Below, piece after piece: positions 41,028 to 59,372 of a stretch of DNA of 64,000 nucleotides; the stretch's first letter is position 1; each line of letters begins with the position of its first letter. The notes beneath the pieces were generated by a model that saw only the letters and a program-made list of their open reading frames with translations, was not told the origin of the DNA and did no database searches. Source of the DNA: Kutzneria kofuensis (GTDB taxonomy: Bacteria; Actinomycetota; Actinomycetes; Mycobacteriales; Pseudonocardiaceae); assembly GCF_014203355.1 (NCBI RefSeq), contig NZ_JACHIR010000002.1, positions 310,001 to 374,000 on the forward strand, read 5' to 3'. Position numbers and translations under genes: made by a program.

Positions 41028-42080
41028 GTGCGAAAGCTGGGAAGTGCCGGCCGGCGGTTGGCGGTGACCACCGCGGCCGTGGGCCTTGCCCTCACGGGTG
41101 TCGGCGTGGTGGGCACGCAGACGGCCTCCGCGGCCGGCAGCGGTCCGTGCGACATCTACGCGGCCGGCGGCACGCCGTGCGTGGCCGCGCACAGCACGAC
41201 CAGGGCGCTCTACGCGTCGTACAACGGGTCGCTGTACCAGGTCCGCCGTAGCTCGGACGGCCGCACGGCCAACATCGGTCCGGTGTCGGCCGGCGGCTAC
41301 GCCAACGCGGGGGCCCAGGACTCGTTCTGCGCCAACACGACCTGCCTGATCACCGTGATCTACGACCAGTCCGGCCGGGGCAACAACCTCACCCAGGCGC
41401 CCGGCGGCGGCGCGGCCGGCGGGCCCGACAACCTCGCCAATGCCACCGCGGCGCCCACCACCGTCAACGGGCACAAGGTGTACGGCGTGTTCGTCGCCCC
41501 CGGCACCGGCTACCGCAACGACCACACCTCGGGCATCGCGACCGGCGACCGGGCCGAGGGGATGTACGCGATCTTCGACGGCACGCACTACAACGGCGGC
41601 TGCTGCTTCGACTACGGCAACGCCGAGACGAGCAACAACGACACCGGCAACGGCCACATGGAGGCCATCTACTTCGGCAACATCAAGGTCTGGGGCTACG
41701 GGTCCGGCAACGGACCGTGGATCATGGCCGACCTGGAGAACGGCCTGTTCTCCGGCGTGAACCAGCACTACAACGCCAACGACCCGACCGTGAACCACCG
41801 CTACCTCACCGCCATCGTCAAGGGCGGCCCCAACAAGTGGGCGATCCGCGGCGGCAATGCGCAATCCGGTGGACTGTCGACATTCTACAGTGGACAGAGG
41901 CCCAACGTCTCGGGCTACAACCCGATGCACAAGGAGGGCGCGATCATCCTCGGCATCGGCGGCGACAACAGCAAGGGATCGGCCGGCACCTTCTACGAAG
42001 GCGTGATGACCTCCGGCTACCCGTCCGACGCCACCGAGAACTCCGTGCAGGCCAACATCGTCTCGGCGGGATACCGCTGA
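41028..42080 (+). CDS. Secreted GH54 alpha-L-arabinofuranosidase, 350 aa
   Basis: Releases arabinose from arabinoxylan and arabinan outside the cell. The signal peptide (RRLAVTTAAVGLALTGVGVV, ending ASA-AG) is followed by the GH54 catalytic beta-sandwich: GPCDIYAAGGTPCVAAHSTT, RALYASYNGSLYQVRRSSDG, CLITVIYDQSGRGNNLTQAP. The Cys-Cys motif NGGCCFDYGNAETSNND, the likely nucleophile Glu in GHMEAIYFGN and the likely acid Asp in LGIGGDNSKG are present. The C-terminal CBM42 domain of fungal AbfB is absent. A GTG start at 41028 has GGGAG upstream. It is part of the operator-defined arabinose regulon. Confidence 0.94.
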   Translation: MRKLGSAGRRLAVTTAAVGLALTGVGVVGTQTASAAGSGPCDIYAAGGTPCVAAHSTTRALYASYNGSLYQVRRSSDGRTANIGPVSAGGYANAGAQDSFCANTTCLITVIYDQSGRGNNLTQAPGGGAAGGPDNLANATAAPTTVNGHKVYGVFVAPGTGYRNDHTSGIATGDRAEGMYAIFDGTHYNGGCCFDYGNAETSNNDTGNGHMEAIYFGNIKVWGYGSGNGPWIMADLENGLFSGVNQHYNANDPTVNHRYLTAIVKGGPNKWAIRGGNAQSGGLSTFYSGQRPNVSGYNPMHKEGAIILGIGGDNSKGSAGTFYEGVMTSGYPSDATENSVQANIVSAGYR

Positions 42081-42184: not shown

Positions 42185-42940
42185 CTAGGTCACGAGATCG
42201 GTCACCACGTCGGCCAACTGGAGGTAGGCACGGGTCAGCGGATCCCGCGGATGGCTGGACGCGACGAGGCCGCCGGGTCCCCGTTCGGCCAAGGCCGGCG
42301 AATGGGGCAGGGACAGCGAGCGGTCGCCCGGCGGCAGCACGACCCCGCCGGGCGAGTCGAGATGGGAGACGACGGGCACGAACTCGGGCGCTCCTTCGAA
42401 CTCGACCCGCAGGAAGCTGAACACGCTGTCGCACTCGGCCTCGGAACGGCAGCCGACGGCGCTCAACTCCACGTGCACGTCGGCCATCAGCAGGCCGACC
42501 ATGGCCATGGCGTTGAGCCCGCTCTGAGTGTCCAGCACCACCACGTCGAGCGCATACTGGCCGATCATCCGGTCGATGACGTCGGTCACCAGGCCCAAGT
42601 CGAGCTCCTGGGCGAGAGCGAACTCGACCTCCTTGTCCCGGACGAGGTAGCCGGGCAGCAGGGTGAGCAGGTCCCCGTGCCCGCGCCCGGGCAGGCGGGA
42701 CGTCAGGTCGACCACGGCCTCGGCCAGCTCGCGGTCGCCGAGCAGCACGGTGGCCAGCCCGACCACCCCGGCGCCGCACTCCAGCGAGTACGGCAGGTGC
42801 AGCGCGGCGGAACCGAACGCGAGGTCGACCATGCCGACCCGCAGCCCACGCTGGGCCAGCAACCATCCGAGGTTGGCGGTGAGCTGGGTGCAGCCCCGCC
42901 CGCCGGCCCACGAATGCACGAGCACGACACTTGCGTCCAT
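42185..42940 (-). CDS. MinD/ParA-like protein with degenerate Walker A (pseudo-ATPase), 251 aa
   Basis: SIMIBI-class fold: VVLVHSWAGGRGCTQLTANL, GWLLAQRGLRVGMVDLAFG, then a DVVVLDTQSGLNAMAMVGLL Walker B-like segment and VHVELSAVGCRSEAECDSVF. The deviant Walker A of this class is KGGxGKT; here residues 12-18 read AGGRGCT, so both the signature and the catalytic lysines are missing. ATP hydrolysis is therefore unlikely; CpaE-like pseudo-ATPases are a precedent for signalling or localisation roles. GGAGGGGG precedes ATG 42940, 5 bp after the phosphatase stop. Last gene of the 11-gene operon. The C terminus lacks an obvious amphipathic membrane-targeting helix. Confidence 0.85.
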   Translation of the reverse strand: MDASVVLVHSWAGGRGCTQLTANLGWLLAQRGLRVGMVDLAFGSAALHLPYSLECGAGVVGLATVLLGDRELAEAVVDLTSRLPGRGHGDLLTLLPGYLVRDKEVEFALAQELDLGLVTDVIDRMIGQYALDVVVLDTQSGLNAMAMVGLLMADVHVELSAVGCRSEAECDSVFSFLRVEFEGAPEFVPVVSHLDSPGGVVLPPGDRSLSLPHSPALAERGPGGLVASSHPRDPLTRAYLQLADVVTDLVT

Positions 42941-42945
42941 CGTCG

Positions 42946-44181
42946 TCACCCCCTCCGAGTCCGCTGCAGGACCATGGCCGTGACGTCGTCGCGGAAGCGG
43001 CCGTCGGTCTGGTCCAGCACCAGCGAGCGGATCTGCGGCCACAGCCGTTCCGGATCGCCGTGGCTGTCCTGCAGCACCCGGATCAGCGCGGGCTCACCGA
43101 CCAGATTCCCGTAGATCGAGCGGGCCTCGGTGATGCCGTCGGTGTAGAGCAACAGCGTCTCCCCGGGCTCGATGGTCAAGGTCTTGGTCTCGAAGTCCGC
43201 GCCCGACACGAGACCGACAACGGGTCCGGTGGCGTCCAGCCGCCGGACCGAGCCGTCGGCGCCCAGCAGCAGGCCGGGCGGGTGCCCGGCGTTGACGTAG
43301 CTGACGGCGCCGGTCTCCGGGTTGAGCGCGCCGGCGAACAGGGTGGCGAAGTACGACCCCGACCGGGACTCTGCGAGGTAGGCGTTGACGGTGCGCACGG
43401 CCTCCAGCAGTTGCGGCTCTCCGGCCGCGAATCGGCGGGGCACCGTCTCGTCGGCGACAGGCTGCTCCCCGTGGAAGTGCTCGAGCATCTCGTGCACAGC
43501 GGTCCGGTTGGCGCCGTCCTGGACCAACCGCCGAAGCAGCCCGCGGATGAGTGCCACGTACAGTCCGGCGCTCACTCCCTTTCCGCTCACGTCGGCGACG
43601 ACGAAGCCGAACCGACGGCCGCCCAGCAGCGGGAAGGTGTCGTGGAAGTCGCCGGACACGGTGCGCGCGGGCTCCGAGCGCACGGAGACTCGCCAGCCGT
43701 TCGGGGCGGGTTCGGTCGGCAGCAGGTTCTGCTGCACGTGCGCCCCGGCCTGCAGCTCGCGCTGGTAGTTGCCCAGCGCGCGGGCCAGCTCCGCCTCCTT
43801 CCCGCTGCGGCCGCGGTCGAGCAGATGGGCCAGGTACGACGCGGAGAACGGGCTGGCCAGGACGTCGAGGCCGCGCGCCTGGTAGTCGGCGACCACGGCC
43901 GGATCGCCGGTGTAGAGGATCACCGGTGGGCGGCCCGACGCTTCGCGCGCCCGCTCGCGGATCCGGCCGGCGTCCTCGGCGGTCAGGTCGTCGGGCAGCA
44001 GCACGGCGGCCACCGAGTCGAGCATCGAGCAGATCATCTCCACGTCGATGCGCACCGGGACCTCCTCTCCCAGCCGGATCACCAGATACGGCCGTGCGGA
44101 CAGCAGCGTGGCGACGCGGTCGGCCAGCGGGCCGCGGTCCCCCACCAGCAGAACGGCCTCGGCGTCGAGGGAGTCAGTCAT
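42946..44181 (-). CDS. RsbU-like PP2C/SpoIIE phosphatase with degenerate receiver domain, 411 aa
   Basis: Residues 1-123 resemble a response-regulator receiver (AEAVLLVGDRGPLADRVATL, PPVILYTGDPA, VLASPFSASYLAHLL), but the expected phosphoacceptor Asp position (AAVLLPDDL) and the Lys (here VLASPF) are not conserved. A helix with basic and Glu/Gln residues links to the SpoIIE domain (about 160-410): metal ligands in ARTVSGDFHDTF and VVADVSGKG, then AGHPPGLLLG, LLLYTDGITEA and RDDVTAMVL. It should dephosphorylate the STAS protein encoded two genes upstream. The start overlaps the kinase gene by 8 bp. Confidence 0.9.
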   Translation of the reverse strand: MTDSLDAEAVLLVGDRGPLADRVATLLSARPYLVIRLGEEVPVRIDVEMICSMLDSVAAVLLPDDLTAEDAGRIRERAREASGRPPVILYTGDPAVVADYQARGLDVLASPFSASYLAHLLDRGRSGKEAELARALGNYQRELQAGAHVQQNLLPTEPAPNGWRVSVRSEPARTVSGDFHDTFPLLGGRRFGFVVADVSGKGVSAGLYVALIRGLLRRLVQDGANRTAVHEMLEHFHGEQPVADETVPRRFAAGEPQLLEAVRTVNAYLAESRSGSYFATLFAGALNPETGAVSYVNAGHPPGLLLGADGSVRRLDATGPVVGLVSGADFETKTLTIEPGETLLLYTDGITEARSIYGNLVGEPALIRVLQDSHGDPERLWPQIRSLVLDQTDGRFRDDVTAMVLQRTRRG

Positions 44182-44581
44182 CGTCCCGCTCCGTTCGCAT
44201 GATCACCACCGTGGTCTCGTTCGTGTCGTCGACCCGCCGGTAGTCGAGCCGGTCGGAGATCGACCGCAGCACGCACAGCCCCACTCCTCCGGGCTCGACC
44301 GGGCTCGTCCTCGGACACGTGTCGCAGCGCGTCGGGTCGAACGGGGCTGCGGTGTCGGTGACGACCAGGCGCACGAGGCCGGACAGGTCGCAGGCCTGTA
44401 CGGTGATGCGGTCGCCGGCCGAGAGGTCGGCGTGCTCGACGAGGTTCGCGAACAACTCCTCGGCGGCCAGCCGCATGCGGTAGTGCTGCCGCTCCGGCAG
44501 TGACTGCTGTCGCGCGAACGCCGCGAGCGCGTCGGCCAGTCGTTGGAAGTCGCCGAGCATCGGTGACAGCGTGATACGCAT
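44174..44581 (-). CDS. RsbW/SpoIIAB-like anti-sigma factor kinase (HATPase), 135 aa
   Basis: GHKL ATPase. The N box is RLAAEELFANLVEHA (Glu41, Asn46), the G1 box VTDTAAPFDP, and the G2 region GGVGLCVLRSISDRLDYRRV. Proteins of this type bind a sigma factor and phosphorylate a STAS antagonist. No sigma factor gene lies in the operon, so its partner sigma factor is encoded elsewhere or the kinase acts only within the switch. It lies 4 bp after the STAS gene. The ribosome binding site is weak, which fits translational coupling. Confidence 0.9.
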   Translation of the reverse strand: MRITLSPMLGDFQRLADALAAFARQQSLPERQHYRMRLAAEELFANLVEHADLSAGDRITVQACDLSGLVRLVVTDTAAPFDPTRCDTCPRTSPVEPGGVGLCVLRSISDRLDYRRVDDTNETTVVIMRTERDDD

Positions 44582-44585
44582 GGGA

Positions 44586-44903
44586 TCACGTCAGTCGTCC
44601 GATGAGGGTGATGGCGTGGTCGAGGCCGGCGAGGCGGATGATGTCGATGATCTCCCGGCGGGCGCCGGTGACCACGAGCTGGATGTCCTCGCCCATCTGC
44701 TGGTGGGCACTGGCCAGGCAGCGCAGGCCGGCCGAGGACATGTAGTCCAGTTCGGACATGTCCAGCACCAGCCGGTTCGGCCGGTCGGCCACGGTGTGGT
44801 CGAGCGTGGCCCGCAGCACGTCGGCCGATGAGATGTCCAGCTGACCGGACAGGTGCAGCACCACGCCGTCCGCGCGATGCTGGGTGTCGATCGAGAAGCT
44901 CAT
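44586..44903 (-). CDS. STAS domain anti-anti-sigma factor (RsbV/SpoIIAA-like), 105 aa
   Basis: GVVLHLSGQLDISSADVLRA and LVLDMSELDYMSSAGLRCLA are the two hallmark blocks; Ser56 or Ser57 in YMSSAGL is the expected phosphorylation site. GGAGGGAATC precedes ATG 44903, which overlaps the epimerase stop as ATGA. Unphosphorylated, it would bind the adjacent kinase and free the sigma factor; the SpoIIE phosphatase would reactivate it. Confidence 0.92.
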   Translation of the reverse strand: MSFSIDTQHRADGVVLHLSGQLDISSADVLRATLDHTVADRPNRLVLDMSELDYMSSAGLRCLASAHQQMGEDIQLVVTGARREIIDIIRLAGLDHAITLIGRLT

Positions 44904-46720
44904 GATTCCCTCCTGGTGCTGTCGGCCAGCGTGACCCGGACCTCTCGGTCCGAGCCGGATCGCGGCAGGCGTACGGTCATCCGATCCGGGTCGAAGTCGC
45001 GGTGCGGCTGTCCATCCACAGTGGTCTTGACCAGCCGCACCCGGCCCGGCGGGAGCACGTCCGGCGCCACCCGCAGCTCGTCATCGGAAAACGCCGCGTC
45101 CGCCCGCGGCCGGAACCACAGGTCCAGCGGCTCGCCGTGGATCAGCAGCCTGTTGTAGACGGTCGCGAGGTAGCACAGCTCCGCGCTGTGGTACATGCTC
45201 ATGGAGTGGCTGCCCTTCAGGCGTTCAGTGCCGAGCATGTACGGAACCCCGTTGGCCAGCACGCTGAAGTACACCGCGCCGTCGTCGTGGTCGAGGAAGT
45301 AGGCGTTGTAGAACGCCTCCGCCTCTCGGCCGTGCCTGAGATCGCTCGCGTCGCCACCCACGCCGGCCAGCAGGGTGTAGGCCAGTATTGCCTGCTCCTG
45401 CTGCCACCACGCCTTGCGGTCGTGCCAGACGAAGGTGTGCCGGCCGTCCTCGGCGATCCGCTCGAGCATGTCGTACCAGCCGCCGCGCTGCGGATCCCGC
45501 GCCAGGTCCGGCATGGCGTCGGCGAGCTGACGGGCCAGCTTGAGGTATTCGTGCTTGCCCCGCGCCGAGTTCATCCGCATCAGGTTCCACACGATCTTCA
45601 GGTTGTGCCCCACCACGGCCCGGTTCTGCTGCCAGCCCCACGACGTGTCGGGCGACCAGTCGGCGTGGAACCGCTCCTGCACGAACGGCGACGACCGGTC
45701 GGGCCAGAAGTGGGACACGATCATGTCGAAGGTGTGTTCCAGCATGTCGCGGTACCGTTGCTCGCCGGTGGCCAGCCACAGGTTGAACAGGTAGGCCGGG
45801 GCGTGGTCGCCGACGGAGTTCCAGTTCTTGCGGCTCCGGTTCGGCCCCAGGCTCTCGGCGTGCGGGGACAGCTGGTACGGGTCGACGTGCGAGAAGTAGC
45901 CACCCCGCGACTTGTCGGCGAAGTGCTCCTGAAACAGCCGCACGGTGCCCTCGATGTCCGCCAGCAGCCTGGGGTCGCCGGTGACCCGGAAGGTCTGCAC
46001 GAGACCGCAGAGGGCGTATATCTGCTCGTAGGCGGGCACGGCCTCGTAGTCGTCGCCGAACTCGGAGGTGAACAGCTTGCGGCTGGGCACGCCGTCGCGC
46101 ACCTCGGTGCCGTGGTACCAGTACACGACGTCGTTGTCCTCGTCCACGAACCGCAGGCGCTCGCGCAAATAATGGCTTCCGGCCTCGGCGACGTCCAAAT
46201 AGGACTGGTCCCCGGACAGCATGTACGCGGAGGCCATGCCGTAGACCAACCGCGAGATGGTGTCGGTCTCCTGCACGTGGTTGCCGGCCGAGCTGCCGGT
46301 GCGGGACAGTTCCGTGCGGTAGCGGGTGAAGTCCACCGGGCCGTCGCCGAACTGGGCGTGCCGGTAGAAGCCGGCGATGCCCCGGATCTGGTCCACCCAC
46401 CACTGTGGATGCTCGAACCGCGGCACGCCGTCCTCGCCGTCGATCACGATGACCCGACTGGCGTGCACCAGCCGCGTGCCCGCGGTCGGGTAGAACAGCC
46501 CGTAGCACGACACCATCCGCCCGGGCACGAGGTGCTCGGCCAGCCGGCCGCTCACGTCCTGGTAGGGCTCGCCCAGGTTGCGCAGGGCTTCGACGGCGGT
46601 GGTGGCCGCCAGCCGGGCCACCACCGCGGATCCGTCCAGTGTGGACAGGTAGAGCCGGTTGTCGCGGAAGGCCCGCACGTAGCCGGTGACCGCGTCGGAG
46701 TAGGTGTGTTCACACGTCAT
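44900..46720 (-). CDS. AGE (N-acylglucosamine 2-epimerase) family protein with N- and C-terminal extensions, 606 aa
   Basis: The central 400 residues are an (alpha/alpha)6 barrel of the AGE/cellobiose epimerase family: YVRAFRDNRLYL precedes it, then RLVYGMASAYMLSGDQSYLD, GGYFSHVDPYQLSPHAESLG, TSWGWQQNRAVVGHNLKIVW with the conserved His, GGWYDMLERIAEDGRHTFVW and YHSAELCYLATVYN. The usual length is 390-420 aa. Here there are about 100 extra N-terminal residues with a beta-rich, OB-like look (GSAVVARLAATTAVEAL, LVPGRMVSCYGLFYPTAG) and about 80 extra C-terminal residues. Sugar epimerisation is not assured; related proteins act on other carbonyl compounds. ATG 46720 is chosen because GAGG precedes it. 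Confidence 0.88.
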   Translation of the reverse strand: MTCEHTYSDAVTGYVRAFRDNRLYLSTLDGSAVVARLAATTAVEALRNLGEPYQDVSGRLAEHLVPGRMVSCYGLFYPTAGTRLVHASRVIVIDGEDGVPRFEHPQWWVDQIRGIAGFYRHAQFGDGPVDFTRYRTELSRTGSSAGNHVQETDTISRLVYGMASAYMLSGDQSYLDVAEAGSHYLRERLRFVDEDNDVVYWYHGTEVRDGVPSRKLFTSEFGDDYEAVPAYEQIYALCGLVQTFRVTGDPRLLADIEGTVRLFQEHFADKSRGGYFSHVDPYQLSPHAESLGPNRSRKNWNSVGDHAPAYLFNLWLATGEQRYRDMLEHTFDMIVSHFWPDRSSPFVQERFHADWSPDTSWGWQQNRAVVGHNLKIVWNLMRMNSARGKHEYLKLARQLADAMPDLARDPQRGGWYDMLERIAEDGRHTFVWHDRKAWWQQEQAILAYTLLAGVGGDASDLRHGREAEAFYNAYFLDHDDGAVYFSVLANGVPYMLGTERLKGSHSMSMYHSAELCYLATVYNRLLIHGEPLDLWFRPRADAAFSDDELRVAPDVLPPGRVRLVKTTVDGQPHRDFDPDRMTVRLPRSGSDREVRVTLADSTRRES

Positions 46721-47318
46721 CACGGACCTCGCCGGCCAGCCGGGCGATCACTGCCCTGGCGAGTTGGGGCGCCTGCGCCACCGTGCGGCCGGTGAGCAGG
46801 TCGCCGTCGTCGACCACATCCCGGTCGACGTACTCGGCGCCCATGTTCCGGCAGTCCCCGATCAGGTTGTTGTGGCAAGTCACCCGACGCCCGCGGATCA
46901 GCTCGGCCACCGGCGACATCAGCCACAACCCGTGGCAGGAGAACACCTTCAGCAGCCGAGGCAGCCGGAAGGCCCGTCGCAGCAGCGACACCGCCGGAGC
47001 GAGGGTGTCCGGGTCGGGCGAGTAGCGCAGCCGGTCGGACACCATGCCGGACGGCACGATCAGCGCGGCATAGCGGTGCAGGTCGCTGTAGCCCACCTGC
47101 TCCAGGTCGCCGCTCACGGTCAGCGGCGCCTGGTACTCGTGCCCGGTGAAGGTGAGCGACTCCGCGCCCCACAGCCGGGTCAGCAGGTCGACCTGCGCCC
47201 CCTCCTCGGCGAAACGCATCCGGTAGTAGGCAATCTCCTCCTCGACGTAGTCGCTCTCCACCAGCAGGCCGATCTTCCGGTCGCGCAGCAGGGGCGGGAG
47301 GGCGTTCAAGGTCGTCAT
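46710..47318 (-). CDS. DJ-1/PfpI family protein (second copy), 202 aa
   Basis: Begins NALPPLLRDRKIGLLVESDY and contains the family core YAALIVPSGMVSDRLRYSPD and the nucleophile elbow LLKVFSCHGLWLMSPVAELI, with Cys as the likely nucleophile followed by His. RRVTCHNNLIGDCRNMGAEY and VVDDGDLLTGRTVAQAPQLA complete the flavodoxin-like fold. Such enzymes can be glyoxalases, isonitrile hydratases, amidases or proteases. GGAGGGGAC precedes ATG 47318, which overlaps the ThDP enzyme stop as ATGA. Confidence 0.9.
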   Translation of the reverse strand: MTTLNALPPLLRDRKIGLLVESDYVEEEIAYYRMRFAEEGAQVDLLTRLWGAESLTFTGHEYQAPLTVSGDLEQVGYSDLHRYAALIVPSGMVSDRLRYSPDPDTLAPAVSLLRRAFRLPRLLKVFSCHGLWLMSPVAELIRGRRVTCHNNLIGDCRNMGAEYVDRDVVDDGDLLTGRTVAQAPQLARAVIARLAGEVRDDV

Positions 47319-48943
47319 GTCCCCTCCGGTGTGGTGTCGACGTCGACCAGGAACGGCCCGTCGGCGCCGAGCATCCGGGCCACGGCCTCGTCCACGTCCG
47401 CCACGGACGACACCTGGCAGCCGGGCACGCCGAGGGAGGCGGCCAGGTCCACGAAGCCGATCGGTGGCTTGGACAGGTCGAACGCCCGCGGATGGGCGCG
47501 GGCCGGACGGCCCTGCTCGCGCCAGTACTGTTCGAGGTTGTCGTCCAGCAGCTGGTAGCGGCCGTTGTTGCAGACCACGAACTTCGCGTCGACGTCGTGC
47601 CGTGCCGCGGTCCACAGCGCCTGGACCGTGTACATGGTCGCGCCGTCGCCGCTGAACGCGATCACAGGCGCGCCGGGCCGCGCGAGCTTGGCGCCGATGG
47701 CCCCGGGGAAGCCGACGCCCAGCGAGCCGCCCCTGGTCTGGAAGAACCGGCCGGGTGTCTGCGCCGGCAGGTGGCGGGCCAGCGAGCCGGCCGCGGTCAG
47801 GGCCTCGTCCACCACGATCAGCTCGCGGGGCGCGCGCCGGGCCAGCCGGGCCACGAAGTGGTCCAGCAGCGTCGACGGCTCAGGCGGTCGGGTCCCGCGC
47901 GAGCGCCGCCGGGCCGGCAGCGGCCGCGGGGCGGTCCGCTCCAGCTCCACGGCCAGCGCCTCCAGGGTGAGCTTCGGGTCCGCGACGACGCCGAGGCTCA
48001 CCGGGTGGTTCTTGGCGATCTGGTCGGGATCGAGGTCGATGTGCACCACCGACGCATCCGTCCTAAATGGACCCGACAGGCTGGGATACACCTCGGGGAA
48101 CAGGTACGTGGCCACCACGAGCACGGCGTCGGCCTCGGCGACCACCCGCGCGCTGTCCGCGCCGAACATGTGCCCGAGCTGACCGCCGTAGAGCGGGTGG
48201 GTGGTGTCCATGTTCAGCTCCGAGCTGTTCACTCCCCACACCGGGGCTCGCAGCGCGCCGGCGACAGCGGCCAGCTCGGCCTGGGCGCCGCTGGCCGCCA
48301 CCCCGTCGCCCATGAGGATCAGCGGGTGCTGACCGCCGCGCAGCAGCCGGGCGGCCTCGGCCACCACGTTCGGCGCCGGCAGCACCCGGGTGCTGGGCAC
48401 GGAGGCCGCCATGGCGGGCTCGGTGGTCACCTCGTCCATCACGTCGGCCGGCAGCACGACCACCACCGGGCCACGCGGCGGTGTCATCGCGACCTGCACC
48501 GCGCGCCGCAGCACCCGCAGCAGCGAGGAGGAGTCCAGTACCCGAAGGGCCTGCTTGGTCACGGGCCGGGCCATGCCGATCAGGTCGGCGGCCATCTGCG
48601 CCTGCATGGCCTCGTATCGGATCCCGGCCTCGCCGACCAGGATGACCAGCGGCGACTGGCCCCGCATGGCCTGGTACAGCATGCCGATGCCGTTGCCCAG
48701 GCCGACGCCGCTGTGCAGCTGGACGACGGCGGGCCGCTCGCCGGCACGGGCGTAGCCGTCGGCCATCGCCACCGCGACGGTTTCCTGCAACGCCAGCACG
48801 TACTCGATGCCCGAGTCGGCGGCCGCGTCGAGGAATCCCTGCTCCACGGTGCCGGGATTGCCGAACATGTGACGCACGCCGTCCGCGGCCAACTGCTCGT
48901 ACAGGGCGGTGGTTCCGGGCCTTGCGTACACCACGGGGCTCAC
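47315..48943 (-). CDS. ThDP-dependent enzyme, benzoylformate-decarboxylase-like, 542 aa
   Basis: Three-domain ThDP enzyme. The PYR domain has MFGNPGTVEQGFLDAAADSG, the activating Glu in VLALQETVAVAMADGYARAG and VVQLHSGVGLGNGIGMLYQA with a His at the benzoylformate decarboxylase active-site position. The PP domain has the cofactor motif IAFSGDGATMYTVQALWTAA ending in VVCNNGRYQLL (GDG-N-NN). NPGT replaces the NPGS of benzoylformate decarboxylase. A 2-oxo acid or an acyloin is the expected substrate. GTG 48943 overlaps the upstream DJ-1 stop as GTGA; GTG 48946 is also possible. It is flanked by two DJ-1 genes, which suggests reactive aldehyde or oxoacid chemistry. Confidence 0.91.
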   Translation of the reverse strand: MSPVVYARPGTTALYEQLAADGVRHMFGNPGTVEQGFLDAAADSGIEYVLALQETVAVAMADGYARAGERPAVVQLHSGVGLGNGIGMLYQAMRGQSPLVILVGEAGIRYEAMQAQMAADLIGMARPVTKQALRVLDSSSLLRVLRRAVQVAMTPPRGPVVVVLPADVMDEVTTEPAMAASVPSTRVLPAPNVVAEAARLLRGGQHPLILMGDGVAASGAQAELAAVAGALRAPVWGVNSSELNMDTTHPLYGGQLGHMFGADSARVVAEADAVLVVATYLFPEVYPSLSGPFRTDASVVHIDLDPDQIAKNHPVSLGVVADPKLTLEALAVELERTAPRPLPARRRSRGTRPPEPSTLLDHFVARLARRAPRELIVVDEALTAAGSLARHLPAQTPGRFFQTRGGSLGVGFPGAIGAKLARPGAPVIAFSGDGATMYTVQALWTAARHDVDAKFVVCNNGRYQLLDDNLEQYWREQGRPARAHPRAFDLSKPPIGFVDLAASLGVPGCQVSSVADVDEAVARMLGADGPFLVDVDTTPEGT

Positions 48944-49767
48944 CACCCGTACCGGCGCAGGCCCTCGTCGAGCACCCGCACGAGCAGTTGACCGGCCGGC
49001 AGGGAGTCCGGGGTGGACCGGGCCGTGACGAACGGGTAGTCCACGATCACCGAGGTCTCGCGGCCGACGTTGCCGTGGAAGCGGCCGTCCGGGCCGGTGG
49101 CGTCGCGCAGGATGTACTCCAGCGGGTACGGCGGCGGGCCCATGTTGAACTCCACGCCGACGAAGCCGGTGCCGTCCTTGTAGTCGTACTCCTTGGGGTG
49201 CCCGGTGACGTGCTTGCCGCGGATGATGCTCTCGCGGGTCTCCAGGTCACGGGCGAAAGCCAGCACGGTGACGCCGTAGCACTCGGCCAGGATCGGCTTG
49301 TCCGCGCGGTAGAAGCCCATCACGACCTCGTGCAGCCGCTCGTTGTTGGCCAGGTCCACGATCGGGCCGCTGCCGCCGACGATGGTCAGCGCGTCGTAGT
49401 CGGCGACCAGGTCGTCGACCGCGCGATCCCGCTCGCGATAGTAGGTCTCCAGCAGCGCGAGGTGGTTGACCGCGCTGAAGTACGGCCGCTCGGGCACCAG
49501 GTCGGCCAGGCTCATCGGGTTGTCCAGCAGCGGCCCGGAGTCCAGGGCCTGGGCCCGCTGCGCCATCGAGGTGCTGGTCACCGAGCGGCCCAGCGGCGGG
49601 TCCAGGTAGTTGGGGTCCAGGCTGGGCGGCAGGGCGACCGGACGCTTGCCGGTGGGGGTGACGAAGTCGACCCGGTAGCCGGCCTCGTCGAACGCCTCCA
49701 CCGGTCCGACCAGTTCCTCGCCCCAGTACCCGTACTCGGACAGCGCCACCAGAATCTGTCGGGTCAT
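48940..49767 (-). CDS. DJ-1/PfpI family protein (first copy), 275 aa
   Basis: QILVALSEYGYWGEELVGPV and EAFDEAGYRVDFVTPTGKRP open the fold; YDALTIVGGSGPIVDLANNE and the elbow KPILAECYGVTVLAFARDLE carry the Glu and nucleophilic Cys of DJ-1 proteins. FVGVEFNMGPPPYPLEYILR and ETSVIVDYPFVTARSTPDSL lie at the end. It is longer than the second copy and not closely similar, so it is a separate member rather than a recent duplicate. ATG 49767 follows GGAGAAAGG, 24 bp after the EthD-like gene. Confidence 0.9.
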   Translation of the reverse strand: MTRQILVALSEYGYWGEELVGPVEAFDEAGYRVDFVTPTGKRPVALPPSLDPNYLDPPLGRSVTSTSMAQRAQALDSGPLLDNPMSLADLVPERPYFSAVNHLALLETYYRERDRAVDDLVADYDALTIVGGSGPIVDLANNERLHEVVMGFYRADKPILAECYGVTVLAFARDLETRESIIRGKHVTGHPKEYDYKDGTGFVGVEFNMGPPPYPLEYILRDATGPDGRFHGNVGRETSVIVDYPFVTARSTPDSLPAGQLLVRVLDEGLRRYGW

Positions 49768-49791
49768 CGGATTGCCTTTCTCCGCGGTGGT

Positions 49792-50490
49792 TCAGGCCCG
49801 GTAGGCGGGCCCGATGATCCAGTTCTGCCGGGTGGCCAGCTGGTGCACGTAGCGCGGCTCGGCGTAGTCGAACAGCCCGTCCAGGAAGGTGCGGAAGGCC
49901 GCCGAGGACCGAGCGGCGACCAGCGCGTCGACGTCGTCGAACCACAGCTGGTGCGCGCCGTCGAGCACGGCCTCACCGACGCCGTAGGCGCCGTCGACCA
50001 CCTGGCCCAGCCAGTAGCGGCGCAGGCCCGGGATCGGTCCCGCGGTCGGCGCGTGCTTGACCAGCGCGTGCCGGCGGGCGTCGTCCAGCGACCAGCCCTC
50101 GCGCCGCTTGTACAGCAGGAAGAGCTTCACGCCGGGCTCGTCGCGTTGGAACGGCGGCCCGTCGACGAGCACGTGCGTGTCGGTGTCGAGCACGATGGTC
50201 TGCCAGAACGCGGCCCAGCGGGGTTCGTCCATACGCGCGCCGTCGAGGAACTCCCGCGTCTGCAGGGACGCCAGCTGCTCCTCGGGGCCGGGCAGCCAGA
50301 TCTCGGCCACTCCGCTCCACTGTGGATCGCCGTCCTCTCCCGGCAGCGCCGTCCTGGTGTCCACGGCGTAGCGCTTGATCTGCGGGATCCGGCTGGCGTA
50401 GCGCACGGCGTGCACCCGCGTCCAGTAGTCGTGGAACTCGGGTTCGCTCATGCCCGGGCGCGGGCTGGCGAAGATGAGCTGATGGATCAC
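49792..50490 (-). CDS. Protein with two EthD-like ferredoxin-fold domains, 232 aa
   Basis: The first domain is IHQLIFASPRPGMSEPEFHD, YWTRVHAVRYASRIPQIKRY, AEIWLPGPEEQ. The second is VKLFLLYKRREGWSLDDARR, HALVKHAPTAGPIPGLRRYW, QLWFDDVDALVAARSSAAFR. Both match the dimeric alpha-beta barrel pattern of EthD and related monooxygenases/isomerases, here as an internal tandem that could form a pseudo-dimer. GTG 50490 follows GGAGGAAGCC. The enzymatic role is unknown; the conserved HAxxY and HA pairs suggest a binding pocket for a small carbonyl compound. Confidence 0.85.
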   Translation of the reverse strand: MIHQLIFASPRPGMSEPEFHDYWTRVHAVRYASRIPQIKRYAVDTRTALPGEDGDPQWSGVAEIWLPGPEEQLASLQTREFLDGARMDEPRWAAFWQTIVLDTDTHVLVDGPPFQRDEPGVKLFLLYKRREGWSLDDARRHALVKHAPTAGPIPGLRRYWLGQVVDGAYGVGEAVLDGAHQLWFDDVDALVAARSSAAFRTFLDGLFDYAEPRYVHQLATRQNWIIGPAYRA

Positions 50491-50505
50491 GGCTTCCTCC
50501 GGTGG

Positions 50506-50814
50506 TCAGACGTCGCGGTAACGCCGCTCGACATCGGCGGCGAAGCTGAGGTAGTCCCGCAGCGGCCAGATCTCCTCGAAGTCGAGGTACTCCCGCATGG
50601 GCAGCCGGAACACCGAGCGGTCCAACTCGTCGGCCGAGGGCGAGTCGACGATCGCGATCACCCGTTTCTGGCCGGCCACCTTCCAGATGCCCACGCAGAA
50701 ACCGGACTTGACGGTCTCCTCGGCGTGCTTGGTCTCCTCGTACTCGATGTCGAGCAGTTCGTCGAGGGTGATGCGTCCCTCGTGGTTCCAGCGCATCTGG
50801 CAGTAGAACAACAT
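50506..50814 (-). CDS. Muconolactone-isomerase-like protein, 102 aa
   Basis: MLFYCQMRWNHEGRITLDEL, EETVKSGFCVGIWKVAGQKR, VIAIVDSPSADELDRSVFRL and PMREYLDFEEIWPL follow the muconolactone delta-isomerase pattern (ferredoxin-like fold, length about 95 aa). A true role in the beta-ketoadipate pathway is unlikely because no other pathway gene is near. The reaction may be isomerisation of a lactone or enol. It starts 7 bp after the stop of the ankyrin protein gene and is followed by the EthD-like gene. Confidence 0.85.
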   Translation of the reverse strand: MLFYCQMRWNHEGRITLDELLDIEYEETKHAEETVKSGFCVGIWKVAGQKRVIAIVDSPSADELDRSVFRLPMREYLDFEEIWPLRDYLSFAADVERRYRDV

Positions 50815-50821
50815 CGCCTCG

Positions 50822-52168
50822 TCACCTCTTTCCGGCCAGCAGCCGGGTCAGTTCGTGCTCGGGCCCGAACACGTCCGCGGCGATGTCGACGGGCAGCGCG
50901 CCCTCGTGGCCGCGCAGGTCCTGTCGAGCGCCGGCGTCGATCAGGACTCGGGCGCACTCCTCGTGGCCGTGCCAGAGCGCGTCGTGCAGCGGGGTGTACC
51001 CGTTGGTGGCGCCGCGGAAGTCGATATCGGCGCCGGGCGCGCGGACCAGCACGGCCGTGATGTCGGCGTGTCCGTTGTAGACGGCCTTGTGCAGCGGGAC
51101 CGCGCCGAACGTCGGCTCGACTGCGTTGACGTCGGCGCCGGCGGCGATGAGCTCCTCGACGATCTCACGGTGCCCGTCGCGGGCAGCGACCAGCAGCGGG
51201 GTGTGCCAGTCGTTGAAGCCGTTGAGCACCGGCGACCGTTCCTCGGTGTCCGCGCCGGCGGCCAGCAGGGCCCGTACCTCGGCCACGTCGCCGGCCACGG
51301 TGGCGGCCATCAGCTTCTGCTCGGCGACCTTCCGCTCGTCCTCGGCCAGCCGGCGGTTGAGCGCCTCCTCGGCCCGGCGCAGCTTCTCGTCGCCGAGCGC
51401 GTTGGCCTTCAGCGCGTAGTCGATGTGGTCGCGCATGGAGAAGCCGTAGTGCGTGGTCAGGTTGATGCCCGCACCGCGCTCCAGGAGCAGCTCGGCAACG
51501 TCCGCGTGCTTGTACCAGAAGGCGTCCAGCAGCGGGGTGTGCCCGGTGGTCGGGGTGGTCGCGTCGAGGAAGGCGCCGCGGTCCAGCAGCAGGCGCACCA
51601 CGTCGATATGCCCGCCCTGCACCGCCTTGTGCAGCGCGGTCCCGCCGCCGCGAGTGTCCATGGTGTGGATGTCCGCGCCGGAGTCGAGCAGCTCACGCAC
51701 GGCCTCCAGGTCGCCACGGCCGGCCGCCGACATGAGCGGGGTCAGCCCGCTCTCCTCGTCGCGGTCTCCGGGAGGTCGCGTCGCTCCCGACCGCTGCACC
51801 CGCAGGGTCCAGCCAGTGACCTGGCGAAAGCGGCTGTCGACCGTCAGTTCGTGAACCTCGTGCAGATGGGTCGGGCCGTCCCGGCCCGCGCGCACCGTGA
51901 TGTCGAGCTCCGCCCGGGCCCGAGCACCACTCACATCCAGCACCCGTATCACGGCGGCGCTCGAGCCGACCCTGGCCCGGCGCAGCGCGAGCGCGACGCC
52001 GAGCGCGTCCCGGCCCGAGTAGACGCCGTCGGCGGGAAGGCCGGCGGCGGGCACCGTCGCCTCGCGGTGCAGCGCCGGGTGCATCCGCTCGTACAACGGC
52101 CGCGCGGATGGTCCGTTCAGCGCGGTGAGCATCTCGCTCACGACCACGCGCACTATGTCATCGGTCAT
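50822..52168 (-). CDS. NTF2/SnoaL-like domain plus ankyrin repeat protein, 448 aa
   Basis: First gene of the 11-gene operon. Residues 1-115 form an NTF2-like domain (MLTALNGPSARPLYERMHPA, LHREATVPAAGLPADGVYSG, ARAELDITVRAGRDGPTHLH, RQVTGWTLRVQ). From about 130 there are ankyrin repeats: SGLTPLMSAAGRGDLEAVRE, GGTALHKAVQGGHIDVVRLL, GHTPLLDAFWYKHADVAELL, then a charged helix (LRRAEEALNRRLAEDERKVA), WHTPLLVAARDGHREIVEEL, VPLHKAVYNGHADITAVLVR and YTPLHDALWHGHEECARVLI. An acidic-basic helix divides the repeats into two blocks. It probably acts as a scaffold or ligand sensor. AGGTGG precedes ATG 52168. Confidence 0.9.
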   Translation of the reverse strand: MTDDIVRVVVSEMLTALNGPSARPLYERMHPALHREATVPAAGLPADGVYSGRDALGVALALRRARVGSSAAVIRVLDVSGARARAELDITVRAGRDGPTHLHEVHELTVDSRFRQVTGWTLRVQRSGATRPPGDRDEESGLTPLMSAAGRGDLEAVRELLDSGADIHTMDTRGGGTALHKAVQGGHIDVVRLLLDRGAFLDATTPTTGHTPLLDAFWYKHADVAELLLERGAGINLTTHYGFSMRDHIDYALKANALGDEKLRRAEEALNRRLAEDERKVAEQKLMAATVAGDVAEVRALLAAGADTEERSPVLNGFNDWHTPLLVAARDGHREIVEELIAAGADVNAVEPTFGAVPLHKAVYNGHADITAVLVRAPGADIDFRGATNGYTPLHDALWHGHEECARVLIDAGARQDLRGHEGALPVDIAADVFGPEHELTRLLAGKR

Positions 52169-52375: not shown

Positions 52376-52498
52376 AGGATGACCGCCGCAGCGTCTGTAT
52401 TGAGAGTTCGGTAAGTCGCCAGAACGTCCGATGATCCCTCGCGAACCATAGCTGGCGGCCGCACGATAGGCCGGATGATCTCGAAAGGGGGAAACACG

Positions 52499-54466
<1,968 letters not shown>

Positions 54467-54485: not shown

Positions 54486-56199
<1,714 letters not shown>

Positions 56200-56203
<4 letters not shown>

Positions 56204-57561
56204 GCGTGACAGCGGACCACCGGCTCACCGAGGCGCTGCGGGCCTGGCTGCCCCAGCAGCGCTGGTTCGGCGGCGGACAGCCCGACGAGGTCATCGTGGA
56301 CGCCGCGCTCGCGCTCGGCGGCGGCCCGGACTGGCCGTCGTGTGCGTCGGTGTACGTCCTCACCGCCGCGATGCCCGGCGGAGAGCGGCGGCGGTTGCAG
56401 GCGCCACTCGGCTTTCGGCCGGTCGGCAGGACGCCGGCGGGCACGGAGACGATCACCGTGCTGGACGGCATCGCCTGCTACGACGCGACGACCGACCCGG
56501 CGGTGATGACCGAGTTGGTCCGCCGGACGGGCGCCGGCGGCGCGGTCGGAGACCTGCGGTTCGTGCCCGAGCCGGGCAACTCCGTCGCCGCCGACGCAGG
56601 GTGCCCGGTGCGGCCGATCGGCGTGGAGCAGTCCAACACCAGCGTGGTGTACGACGACCGCCTGATCTTCAAGCTGTTCCGGCGCCTGCACCCCGGGCTC
56701 AACCCGGACGCCGAGGTGCACCGGAGGCTGACCCGGGCCGGCTGTCGCCAGGTGGCGCCGCTGGTCGGCACGGTCGACACCGTGCTCGACGGCGAGCCCG
56801 TGACCCTCGCGGTGCTGCAGGAGTTCGCCGCCGACGCCGTGGACGGCTGGGCCATGGCGCAGGCCAGCGTGCGCGAGTCACTGGCCGATCCGGCCGAGGA
56901 GGTGGAAATGGCCGGTGGCGACCTGAGCGCGGAGATGTTCCGGCTCGGCGCCGCGGTCGCGTCGGCGCACCGCGCCCTGGCCACGGCGTTCGAGATCGGT
57001 CCCCCGGATCCGACCGGCATCGCCGGCCGCATGATCGAACGATTCGACCGCACCGCGGTCCTGGTCCCGGAGCTGGGCCGCCGGCGGGCGGAGTTCCGCG
57101 AGGTCGTCGAGGAGGCGGCCTACGCGGCGGTCGACTCGAGCACTCAACGGGTGCACGGCGATCTGCACCTGGGGCAGGTGCTGCGCACCAGCACCGGTTG
57201 GCTGCTGATCGACTTCGAGGGCGAGCCCGGCCGGCCGATCGTGGAGCGGATCGCGCTCGATCTGCCGGTACGGGACCTGGCCGGGATGGTTCGCTCGCTG
57301 GACTACGCGGCCGAGCGCCATCTGGCCGACCTCCCCTGCGGATCCGCGGATCCCGGCGCCGCCGACCGCGTCCGCGCCTGGGCGGCGGCCAACCGGCGGG
57401 CTTTCCTGGCCGGTTACGGGGATCCGGGACCGGAGCCGTTGCTGCGGGCCTACGAGCTGGACAAGGCCGTCTACGAGCTCGGTTACGAGCTGCGGCACCG
57501 GCCGTCGTGGGCGGAGGTTCCGCTGCGCGCCGTGGCCCAGATCCTGGACGGCGACACGTGA
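56200..57561 (+). CDS. pep2: Maltokinase, 453 aa
   Basis: Phosphorylates maltose to maltose 1-phosphate for GlgE. The N-terminal cap domain has LPQQRWFGGGQPDEV and GVEQSNTSVVYDDRLIFKLF with the ATP-binding Lys. The kinase C-lobe has TQRVHGDLHLGQVLRTSTGW, the catalytic HGDxHxxQ, and WLLIDFEGEPGRPIVERIAL, the Mg-binding DFEG. ATG 56200 overlaps the restored treS stop as ATGA, and its own stop overlaps the glgB GTG as GTGA. The length fits Pep2 proteins (about 455 aa). Confidence 0.95.
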
Positions 57562-59372
57562 GCGGCCCGACCACCCACGCGCTCGGGGCCCACGTCAGCG
57601 CCGACGGCGTCCGTTTCGGCCTCTGGGCCCCGAACGCCCACGCGGTGCGGGTCGGCCTGGACGACGGCAGCCGGCACGAGCTGACCGCCGCGGACGGCCG
57701 GTGGACGGCCGAGGTTCCCGGCGTCGGACCGGGCGCGCGGTATCAGTTCGCCGTCACCGGGGCGGACGGGGTGACCAGGATCAAGGCCGATCCGCTGGCC
57801 TTCGCGGTGGCCGCCGACCGGCACGACGTGAGCGTGGTCGAGGCGTCGAACCACGTCTGGACCGACGAGAAATGGCTGGCTCGCCGCCGCGGGGCGGGGC
57901 ATCGCCCGATGAGCGTGTACGAGGTGCACGTCGGCTCGTGGCGGCCGGGACTGGGCTACCGCGAGCTGGCCCGGCCGCTGGCCGAGCACGTGCGGGACTC
58001 GGGCTTCACCCACGTCGAGTTCCTCCCGCTCACCGCCCATCCGTTCGCCGGCTCCTGGGGCTACCAGGTCACGTCCTACTTCGCGCCGGAACCCCGCTGG
58101 GGGTCGCCGGACGACCTGCGGTTCCTCGTCGACACCCTGCACGCGCACGACATCGGCGTGGTGCTGGACTGGGTGCCCGGCCACTTCGCCCGCGACGAGT
58201 GGGCGCTCGGAGCGTTCGACGGCACGCCACTCTACGAGCACCCGGATCCGCGTCTGGGCTACCAGCCCGAGTGGGACACGTTCGTCTTCGACTACGGTCG
58301 CGCGGAGGTCCAGGACTTTCTCCTGGCCAGTGTGGCGCACTGGATCGAGCAGTACCATGTCGACGCGATCCGGGTGGACGCCGTCTCCTCGATGCTGTGC
58401 CTGGATTTCGGCCGTGCGCCGGGACAATGGCGGGCCAACGACGAGGGCGGGTGCACCAACCCGGACGCGGTCGACTTCCTGCACCGGCTCAACGACACCA
58501 CGCACGAGGCTCATCCGGGCGTGCTCACCGTGGCCGAAGCGGCCCGCCCCTGGCCCGGCATCACCGCGCAGGAAGGTCCGACCGCACTGCGTTTCGACCG
58601 CACCTGGAACCTGGGATGGACACACGACACACTGGGCTACGTCGGGCATCCACCCACCGAGCGTCCGACCCAGCACGAACTGCTCCTGCGGCCGTTCGAC
58701 TACGCCGATGACGAGCGGTTCGTGCTGCCGTTCTCACACGACGAGGTCGGCCCGCGCGCCGGTTCGCTCTGGTCGCGGCTTCCCGGCGACTCAGCGGACA
58801 AGGCCGCGGCACTGCGGGTCCTGCTGGCGCTGCAATGGGCGCTGCCCGGCGACAAGTTGCTGTTCATGGGCACCGAGTTCGGAGCTCGCGCCGAGTGGTC
58901 GCACGAGCGGGGCCTGGACTGGGGACTGCTGTCCGATCCGCGGCACGGCGGGCTGCGGAGCCTGGTTCGGGAGCTCAACCGCCTGGCCCGAACGATGCCC
59001 ACACTCCGTGACCGGCAATTGTTCACCCGTCCGACGCAGAGCGACGCTCACCTGGGGTTACTGACCTTTGCCCGCCCTGGACCAAAGGGGCGAACTTTCG
59101 TTTTCGTTGCCAATCTCTCCAATAGGGACATCAAGAATTACCGTCCGTCAGCGATTGCTCCGAACGGTTGGTCCGTCGGACTCGACACGGATGACCCCCG
59201 TTTCAACGGCCGAGGCGCTGATCAGCCCGAACAAAGACCGCTCGGCATTGTGCGGCTGCGCCCCAGTCAGGCACTCTGGTTGTTCGGTGACGCTGCGCAT
59301 CAGCACTGGACGCCATCGAGTCACGGTCCACCGAACGGCCGACCATTGCCCAACCCGACAACTTGCAAGTGA
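57558..59372 (+). CDS. glgB: 1,4-alpha-glucan branching enzyme-like GH13 protein, short form, 604 aa
   Basis: Introduces alpha-1,6 branches. The CBM48 domain (FGLWAPNAHAVRVGLDDGSR) is followed directly by the barrel: SVYEVHVGSWRPGLGYRELA, HVEFLPLTAHPFAGSWGYQV, VLDWVPGHFARDEWALGAFD, DAIRVDAVSSMLCLDFGRAP (nucleophile Asp), VLTVAEAARPWPGITAQEGP (acid Glu) and VLPFSHDEVGPR. It lacks the extra N-terminal domain of many actinobacterial GlgBs (about 730 aa). The usual AEES of region III reads AEAA, so it is a divergent member. The last 110 codons are lower in GC than the rest and include a TTA leucine codon (501). The GTG start is coupled to pep2. Confidence 0.9.
   Translation: MSGPTTHALGAHVSADGVRFGLWAPNAHAVRVGLDDGSRHELTAADGRWTAEVPGVGPGARYQFAVTGADGVTRIKADPLAFAVAADRHDVSVVEASNHVWTDEKWLARRRGAGHRPMSVYEVHVGSWRPGLGYRELARPLAEHVRDSGFTHVEFLPLTAHPFAGSWGYQVTSYFAPEPRWGSPDDLRFLVDTLHAHDIGVVLDWVPGHFARDEWALGAFDGTPLYEHPDPRLGYQPEWDTFVFDYGRAEVQDFLLASVAHWIEQYHVDAIRVDAVSSMLCLDFGRAPGQWRANDEGGCTNPDAVDFLHRLNDTTHEAHPGVLTVAEAARPWPGITAQEGPTALRFDRTWNLGWTHDTLGYVGHPPTERPTQHELLLRPFDYADDERFVLPFSHDEVGPRAGSLWSRLPGDSADKAAALRVLLALQWALPGDKLLFMGTEFGARAEWSHERGLDWGLLSDPRHGGLRSLVRELNRLARTMPTLRDRQLFTRPTQSDAHLGLLTFARPGPKGRTFVFVANLSNRDIKNYRPSAIAPNGWSVGLDTDDPRFNGRGADQPEQRPLGIVRLRPSQALWLFGDAAHQHWTPSSHGPPNGRPLPNPTTCK

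Follow-up and report, generated by a model that had tools for sequence, protein, structure and literature searches.

The window examined here, the whole 64,000-nt stretch at positions 310001-374000 of contig C2 of the Kutzneria kofuensis genome (10.4 Mb in five contigs), carries on its minus strand, at 42185-52168, an operon-like block of eleven genes. From first to last these encode an ankyrin-repeat protein, a muconolactone isomerase-like protein (MIase), a double EthD-domain protein, a ThiJ/PfpI-family protein (DJ1a), a thiamine diphosphate-dependent (ThDP) enzyme, a DJ-1/PfpI protein (DJ1b), an enlarged AGE-family protein, a STAS protein, an RsbW/SpoIIAB-like HATPase, a SpoIIE/PP2C-type phosphatase and a MinD/ParA-like protein. 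With a probability of about 0.6, we consider the block to be an actinobacterial operon of the type of the icfG cluster of Synechocystis PCC 6803, in which a STAS/HATPase/PP2C partner switch would operate on a DJ1b-AGE sugar-epimerase-like module of an alpha-glucan/trehalose locus. This reading rests on the conserved gene order, the relatedness of kinase and phosphatase, the GlgX and GlgE context, and gene fusions found in relatives.

All eleven open reading frames (ORFs) were borne out, each being selected by a codon-model gene caller with scores from 45 (HATPase) to 341 (AGE). The junctions, first gene to last, measure 7, 15, 24, -7, -4, -14, -4, 4, -8 and 5 bp, which confirms eleven minus-strand genes with gaps of at most 24 bp, as a preliminary description of this DNA had stated. 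Its remark that most of them overlap as ATGA/GTGA was correct in that overlaps exist, but these occur at only five of the ten junctions and measure 4 bp as called at two, a third being possible given another GTG start.

Conservation of the operon and kinship with icfG

Scanning genome contigs with the AGE protein returned at least 580 relatives, the best 80 of which were examined (73 actinobacterial); 11 loci from other genomes and then 20 more (19 cyanobacterial) were added, and five duplicates were dropped. The comparison covers 80 distinct actinobacterial loci, the window excluded, 70 of them with at least 7 kb on both sides. Because loci were collected by AGE similarity, all counts are fractions of AGE-bearing loci; unless stated otherwise, a gene was scored as present when tblastn matched it on the same strand within 9 kb of AGE.

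Among the 70 actinobacterial loci, DJ1b was present in 68, DJ1a in 64, ThDP in 63, and GlgX in 69, a number unchanged under a stricter threshold of at least 300 bits. A STAS gene of any type was found in 68, HATPase and SpoIIE in 56 each, the MinD-like gene in 34, EthD in 20, and MIase and ankyrin in 5 each (ankyrin on any strand, 9); GlgE on any strand was found in 28. DJ1a, ThDP, DJ1b, HATPase and SpoIIE stood jointly beside AGE in 50 loci. The operon-like block and the partner-switch trio proposed earlier are supported, as is a conserved link of enzymes to switch. Jointly, DJ1b, GlgX, STAS, HATPase and SpoIIE accompanied AGE in 53 of these 70 loci, and in 13 of the 23 from cyanobacteria. 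As these per-gene counts indicate, the core order is conserved and ankyrin-MIase-EthD is a variable block. The order goes beyond chance, since distant genera share most of it and cyanobacteria share a part. A single-genome curiosity was accordingly rejected for the core, which a neighbourhood search recovers in many relatives, but the exact eleven-gene order is confined to the window, with none among 91 other gene-called loci.

AGE itself is sparse: at E 1e-60 it occurs in 6 of 397 genomes sampled from the order, and at E 1e-100 in 2 of 396 from the phylum and in 26 of 292 cyanobacteria, each sample including seed genomes. Saccharothrix sp. ALI-22-I has three AGE clusters: L024 with ankyrin-MIase-EthD and no kinase or phosphatase, L052 with neither, and L074 with kinase and phosphatase.

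The icfG cluster has been cited since the 1990s for tying the use of glucose to the supply of carbon, with Shi et al. 1999 reportedly as its source paper. The slr1854 gene of the cluster can be regarded as DJ-1-like. A table in PMC3564720 names Slr1853 a carboxymuconolactone decarboxylase (CMD) and Slr1854 unknown; in locus L091 a CMD-family gene lies ahead of the DJ-1 gene. Passages of PMC8670252 and PMC12329169 describe icfG (slr1852-slr1862) as one operon with a role in carbon metabolism, encoding AGE (Slr1855), STAS, a PP2C phosphatase and an RsbW-like kinase, and as a carbon/glucose regulator that joins this regulatory core and AGE to an isoamylase; the cluster kinase phosphorylates STAS proteins and IcfG dephosphorylates one of them. 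How the icfG enzymes connect to the switch is not told in those passages. The preliminary description knew of no described system with the composition of the window operon, a view overturned by the icfG papers; an unknown composition was also rejected because GlgX lies between AGE and STAS in relatives. For STAS/GlgX, GlgE or AGE in combination with anti-sigma factors or partner switches, none of the matches listed in the open-licence PubMed Central literature describes this actinobacterial cluster.

Cyanobacterial loci bear out the resemblance. The order is DJ-1, AGE, STAS, GlgX, STAS, HATPase, SpoIIE in L079 (Pegethrix), and DJ-1, AGE, STAS, GlgX, STAS, SpoIIE, HATPase in L151, where names were given by similarity. 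In the 23 cyanobacterial loci with enough flank, DJ1b was found in 20, GlgX in 21, any STAS in 22, HATPase in 15 and SpoIIE in 14, and DJ1a and ThDP in one each. One member of this set, L165, has GlgX, an AGE-STAS fusion, and relatives of DJ1a (54%) and ThDP (46%) nearby, a sign that the DJ1a/ThDP additions are not restricted to actinobacteria. The window resembles icfG in that its AGE gene is directly preceded by a DJ-1 gene, as in L079 and L151, and in that a SpoIIE/PP2C phosphatase and a related kinase lie inside the operon. It differs in having one STAS and no GlgX in place of two STAS genes flanking GlgX, an arrangement complete in the second copy described below, in adding the DJ1a, ThDP, EthD, MIase, ankyrin and MinD-like genes, in placing HATPase before SpoIIE, and perhaps in its phosphatase, on which Pfam names no input domain.

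A second cluster (L101) lies on contig C1 of the same genome, with the order DJ1a-ThDP-DJ1b-AGE-STAS-GlgX-STAS-HATPase-SpoIIE; its ThDP and AGE proteins are 61% and 63% identical to those of the window. HATPase_c_2 matches number 61 in this genome, of which 29 exceed the cut-off. When the HATPase of the L079 cluster was searched against this genome (E up to 10; 24 first-look candidates scored), only two matches were returned, both AGE-linked, one in the second cluster (1.9e-16) and one in the window (3.5e-4). The best match of the window HATPase other than itself was the copy of the second cluster (2.1e-14; next 9.1e-4), and the same held for the window SpoIIE (4.7e-50; next 1.5e-14). A cyanobacterial GlgX likewise matched the GlgX of the second cluster first (61%; next place 47%). 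Because the kinase, SpoIIE and GlgX searches all point to AGE-linked copies, the window and icfG-type switches are specific relatives, the window kinase being the more distant one.

The AGE enzyme, its fusions and the alpha-glucan context

The AlphaFold model of the window AGE protein (13 sequences; mean predicted local distance difference test (pLDDT) 79.4, predicted template modelling score (pTM) 0.87; residues 478-508 and some loops below 50) shows a helical barrel between two beta domains, one N-terminal and one C-terminal. Foldseek placed Runella glucose-2-epimerase 8h1l first among PDB entries (probability 1.00), followed by cellobiose 2-epimerases and mannose isomerase, all at 15-19% identity, and a profile search agreed weakly (8bry 1.7e-5, 8h1k 4.2e-5). 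Two histidines, H373 and H512, do not vary across an alignment of 16 sequences and may be inferred to form the AGE catalytic pair. The protein shares with the AGE superfamily the barrel fold and the GHN and WQQ motifs, which align with 8h1k. It differs from the glucose-2-epimerase (8h1k-n), cellobiose 2-epimerase and mannose isomerase in its 607 residues and extra N- and C-terminal beta domains, falls far below the NCBIfam AGE and CE curated cut-offs, and has relatives fused to DJ-1 or STAS. Judged from its Pfam match, model and fold comparison, it is probably a sugar epimerase/isomerase.

In-frame DJ1b-AGE and AGE-STAS fusions in relatives are new here; neither the fusions nor the actinobacterial spread of the cluster is described among the literature matches listed. 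Among 112 distinct AGE ORFs (distinct by the last 200 residues), DJ1b and AGE share one frame in ten, all actinobacterial and several with Ala/Pro- or Gly/Asn-rich linkers. In another ten, nine cyanobacterial and one from a Pirellulales record, AGE is followed by a STAS-like domain; beyond these, the AGE tail of L138 has no match at 1e-3 and the L147 ORF is partial and unassigned. Four DJ1b-AGE fusions and the Pirellulales AGE-STAS protein each have their two domains recognised by Pfam, which recovers only the STAS part of the L091 protein, whose AGE part was assigned by similarity. The model of this L091 protein (pLDDT 77.3, pTM 0.80) has both parts folded. In a quick AGE tree (106 sequences, support by Shimodaira-Hasegawa-like approximate likelihood ratio test only), the actinobacterial proteins form one side of a 100% branch, and the DJ1b fusion requires at least three changes and the STAS fusion one (8 fused rows present). 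The fused STAS domains resemble STAS2, the type retained in the window. The in-frame fusions suggest that DJ1b, AGE and STAS, enzyme and switch, act in contact.

These fusions bear on two further interpretations. In one, STAS would be a subunit of a DJ-1/AGE complex in which phosphorylation switches the enzyme, or an enzyme ligand gates the switch; the enzyme would be the direct client and sigma control secondary, and the DJ-1/AGE-STAS module would be old and common to cyanobacteria, actinobacteria and a planctomycete. We hold this joint proposal tentatively, as possible. In the other, which we find rather doubtful, the operon is an ordinary sigma-factor partner switch whose enzymes are merely co-transcribed outputs with no physical link to it, the sigma factor lying elsewhere. 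Passages of PMC12329169 lend it weight, as Slr1861, the cluster kinase, is an anti-SigC factor there, binding the antagonist of SigC and controlling SigC in Synechocystis; according to passages of PMC8346170, the RsbV homologue SCO7325 acts on SigB in S. coelicolor. The neighbourhood of SCO7325 could not be tied to the present cluster. The intact SSAG motif of the window STAS also favours an ordinary switch, whereas the AGE-STAS and DJ1b-AGE fusions argue for physical association. Furthermore, 14 of the 70 actinobacterial loci have no HATPase or SpoIIE beside AGE on the same strand, yet a STAS-cluster gene is present in all 14, and in 12 of them it shares that strand; in L086 the kinase/phosphatase pair lies on the opposite strand from AGE.

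Compared with SpoIIA and RsbVW-SigB, the window operon has the same STAS antagonist, HATPase_c_2 kinase and PP2C phosphatase. It differs from them in its coupled sugar enzymes, fused in relatives, and in the G1 box, which is usually DxG and reads DxA in the listed variants of the present kinase family. No sigma factor gene occurs among the eleven, as the preliminary description had noted, and neither the gene at 41064-42080 nor the GlgE block supplies one. In the cyanobacterial precedent, SigC, the proposed target of the icfG switch, is not described as a member of the icfG operon.

On the other side of the intergenic region, genes for GlgE, a TreS-like enzyme, a maltokinase-like protein and a GlgB-like protein diverge from the operon, as in the Streptomyces GlgE pathway, which leads from trehalose to alpha-glucan (PMC5042117); a partner switch is not mentioned in the abstract and passages of that paper. 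The same GlgE-side arrangement occurs in relatives, for example L021, L025, L042, L067 and L074. Because these genes adjoin the operon and GlgX lies inside nearly all sister operons, the system can be placed, from its gene neighbourhood, in alpha-glucan/sugar metabolism, and it may be a regulator of the GlgE route from trehalose to glucan. The leading idea of the preliminary description, a pathway forming or consuming a reactive carbonyl or 2-oxo acid, with the switch as its reporter, is displaced by this context and is now quite improbable: the commonest partners are alpha-glucan genes (GlgX in 69/70 and 21/23 loci), which are also the immediate neighbours, and DJ1b, AGE, GlgX and STAS are common to both phyla, whereas DJ1a and ThDP each occur in one of 23 cyanobacterial loci. 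In its favour are the two DJ-1 proteins, the benzoylformate decarboxylase-family ThDP enzyme, EthD and MIase, together with VOC/glyoxalase, GMC oxidoreductase and SnoaL-like genes in relatives, and the DJ1a, DJ1b and ThDP proteins do leave room for carbonyl chemistry.

Working of the switch and state of the window copy

In the icfG-type reading, the HATPase would phosphorylate STAS and the SpoIIE protein would reverse this, and STAS would dock on the DJ1b-AGE enzyme. Sugar status, whether glucose or a glucan-derived oligosaccharide, would set the amount of free STAS, and dephosphorylated STAS would capture the HATPase and release its other partner. As one output, that partner would most likely be a sigma factor encoded elsewhere, as with Slr1861 and SigC. 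The window copy may depend on the adjacent GlgE pathway and on the second, complete cluster of the genome. Taken with the fusions, the shared alpha-glucan context leads to the testable proposal that the switch and the enzyme complex form a single machine.

In alignments, the window switch has the phosphorylatable STAS serine (SSAG, intact at the expected phosphoserine), the HATPase boxes and the PP2C metal-binding motifs, GDF and DD being kept in SpoIIE; these motifs are read with the meaning usual for their families.

Several observations weigh against the icfG-type reading. The comparison with Synechocystis 6803 icfG is one of published gene content, the window kinase matches its cyanobacterial counterpart weakly (3.5e-4), the fused STAS domains mostly lack a linked kinase, and several of them have lost the Ser/Thr motif. 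The window operon is without GlgX and STAS1; GlgX is also absent from L071 and L161, which keep kinase and phosphatase, and from the broken locus L166. The window AGE sits on a long branch (0.57) inside an 18-row clade (support 100), and all 12 other rows of this clade with full flanks lack kinase and phosphatase beside AGE, so that the window switch genes may have been re-acquired or be drifting. Of 59 SpoIIE rows, 58 carry VCDKG and the window alone VSGKG, and the N-box of the window kinase is divergent. The MinD-like protein has lost the P-loop lysine, in keeping with the pseudo-ATPase proposed earlier, but this is not a family trait: the lysine is present in 33 of the 35 rows of the alignment, which counts duplicates and one cyanobacterial protein, and one called row is truncated.

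The window copy is thus aberrant, and the long AGE branch, the missing GlgX and STAS1, the broken P-loop, the altered SpoIIE and HATPase motifs and a second copy with all core genes would also be expected of a decaying duplicate with a dead switch, the second copy being the working system. We regard this as unlikely, as all eleven frames are open with positive coding scores and tight spacing, and the STAS SSAG and PP2C GDF and DD motifs are retained.

Gene inventory, upstream regions and neighbourhood

Pfam supports most of the domain identities proposed in the preliminary description (Table 1). It reports no NTF2 domain in the ankyrin protein (E up to 0.01), and the last gene is only weakly MinD/ParA-like. 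The top PDB matches of the ThDP enzyme are benzoylformate decarboxylases. Upstream of residue 188 the phosphatase has no Pfam family; the cyanobacterial phosphatases may carry a GAF input domain, by our reading of L079 and L151. A search of the whole window with Rfam gave nothing at gathering thresholds.

Table 1 Genes of the operon and of the divergent GlgE block (window coordinates).
Feature	Position	Strand	Evidence
Ankyrin-repeat protein, 448 aa, first gene	50822..52168	-	Pfam ankyrin repeats
Muconolactone isomerase-like protein, 102 aa	50506..50814	-	Pfam MIase 2.2e-14
Double EthD-domain protein, 232 aa	49792..50490	-	Pfam EthD, two stretches
DJ1a, ThiJ/PfpI-family, 275 aa	48940..49767	-	Pfam
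ThDP enzyme, benzoylformate decarboxylase family, 543 aa	47315..48946	-	Pfam, three domains; PDB 6a50, E 1.5e-59
DJ1b, DJ-1/PfpI protein, 202 aa	46710..47318	-	Pfam
Enlarged AGE-family protein (AGE/GlcNAc 2-epimerase), 607 aa	44900..46723	-	Pfam 2.2e-18; AlphaFold; Foldseek
STAS protein, STAS2-like, 105 aa	44586..44903	-	Pfam; 37% to L079 STAS2, 31% to L079 STAS1
RsbW/SpoIIAB-like HATPase (HATPase_c_2), presumed STAS kinase, 135 aa	44174..44581	-	Pfam; alignment; orthology searches
SpoIIE/PP2C-type phosphatase, 411 aa	42946..44181	-	Pfam SpoIIE at residues 188-407
MinD/ParA-like protein, broken P-loop, 251 aa	42185..42940	-	Sub-threshold Pfam CbiA, 23.3 bits (cut-off 25.4)
GlgE maltosyltransferase, divergent neighbour	52475..54466	+	Pfam GlgE_dom_N_S 4.8e-47
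TreS-like GH13 enzyme	54486..56144	+	Pfam Alpha-amylase 3.1e-92; name TreS inferred from place and relatives
Maltokinase-like protein	56200..57561	+	Pfam Mak_N_cap and APH
GlgB-like protein	57558..59372	+	Pfam CBM48, GH13; GlgB_N below cut-off

The intergenic region between GlgE and the operon contains a SigB-like box, GTTA-N13-GGGTAT, at 52375-52353 (minus). A SigB-type promoter GTT-N12-17-GGGTAY is not conserved upstream in relatives, with matches in 5 of 77 regions (shuffled mean 0.6, maximum 3), of which three fall inside the first codons and another belongs to a cyanobacterial locus whose genes are poorly called; the related form with GKTT matched none of the 45 upstream regions left after deduplication. 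With so few matches, such a promoter was rejected as the general promoter of the operon, which speaks weakly against an ordinary sigma switch. Of these 45 deduplicated regions, 31 contain a palindrome like ACTTCnnGAAGT, agreeing at 8 or more of 10 positions (shuffled mean 4.4, maximum 9). It is probably a shared operator, as predicted from this recurrence; the window has one 8/10 site, at 52405-52416.

Near the AGE cluster, L091 (12577-14235), L101 (14045-15655) and others encode a protein that joins a response regulator to a pyridine-nucleotide-disulphide-oxidoreductase domain, a possible redox input; matches to it on any strand occur in 36 of the 70 actinobacterial loci and in 4 of the 23 cyanobacterial ones. 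A block of SnoaL-like, GMC oxidoreductase and VOC/glyoxalase genes recurs (L101:15828-19626; L080-L100), either beside DJ1a or between ThDP and AGE. Near 16 of 91 gene-called loci, duplicates included, lies a ketosynthase-acyltransferase-acyl carrier protein (KS-AT-ACP) polyketide synthase (cluster c22, e.g. L103:15493-18687; Pfam of one member).

Immediately downstream of the operon and converging on it, 41064-42080 (+) encodes an alpha-L-arabinofuranosidase B catalytic domain (Pfam 3.9e-164). Immediately beyond the GlgE block, at 59474-60661 (+), is a DDE_5-type transposase gene, and a cluster of the same Pfam family (c9, one member tested) recurs near relatives.

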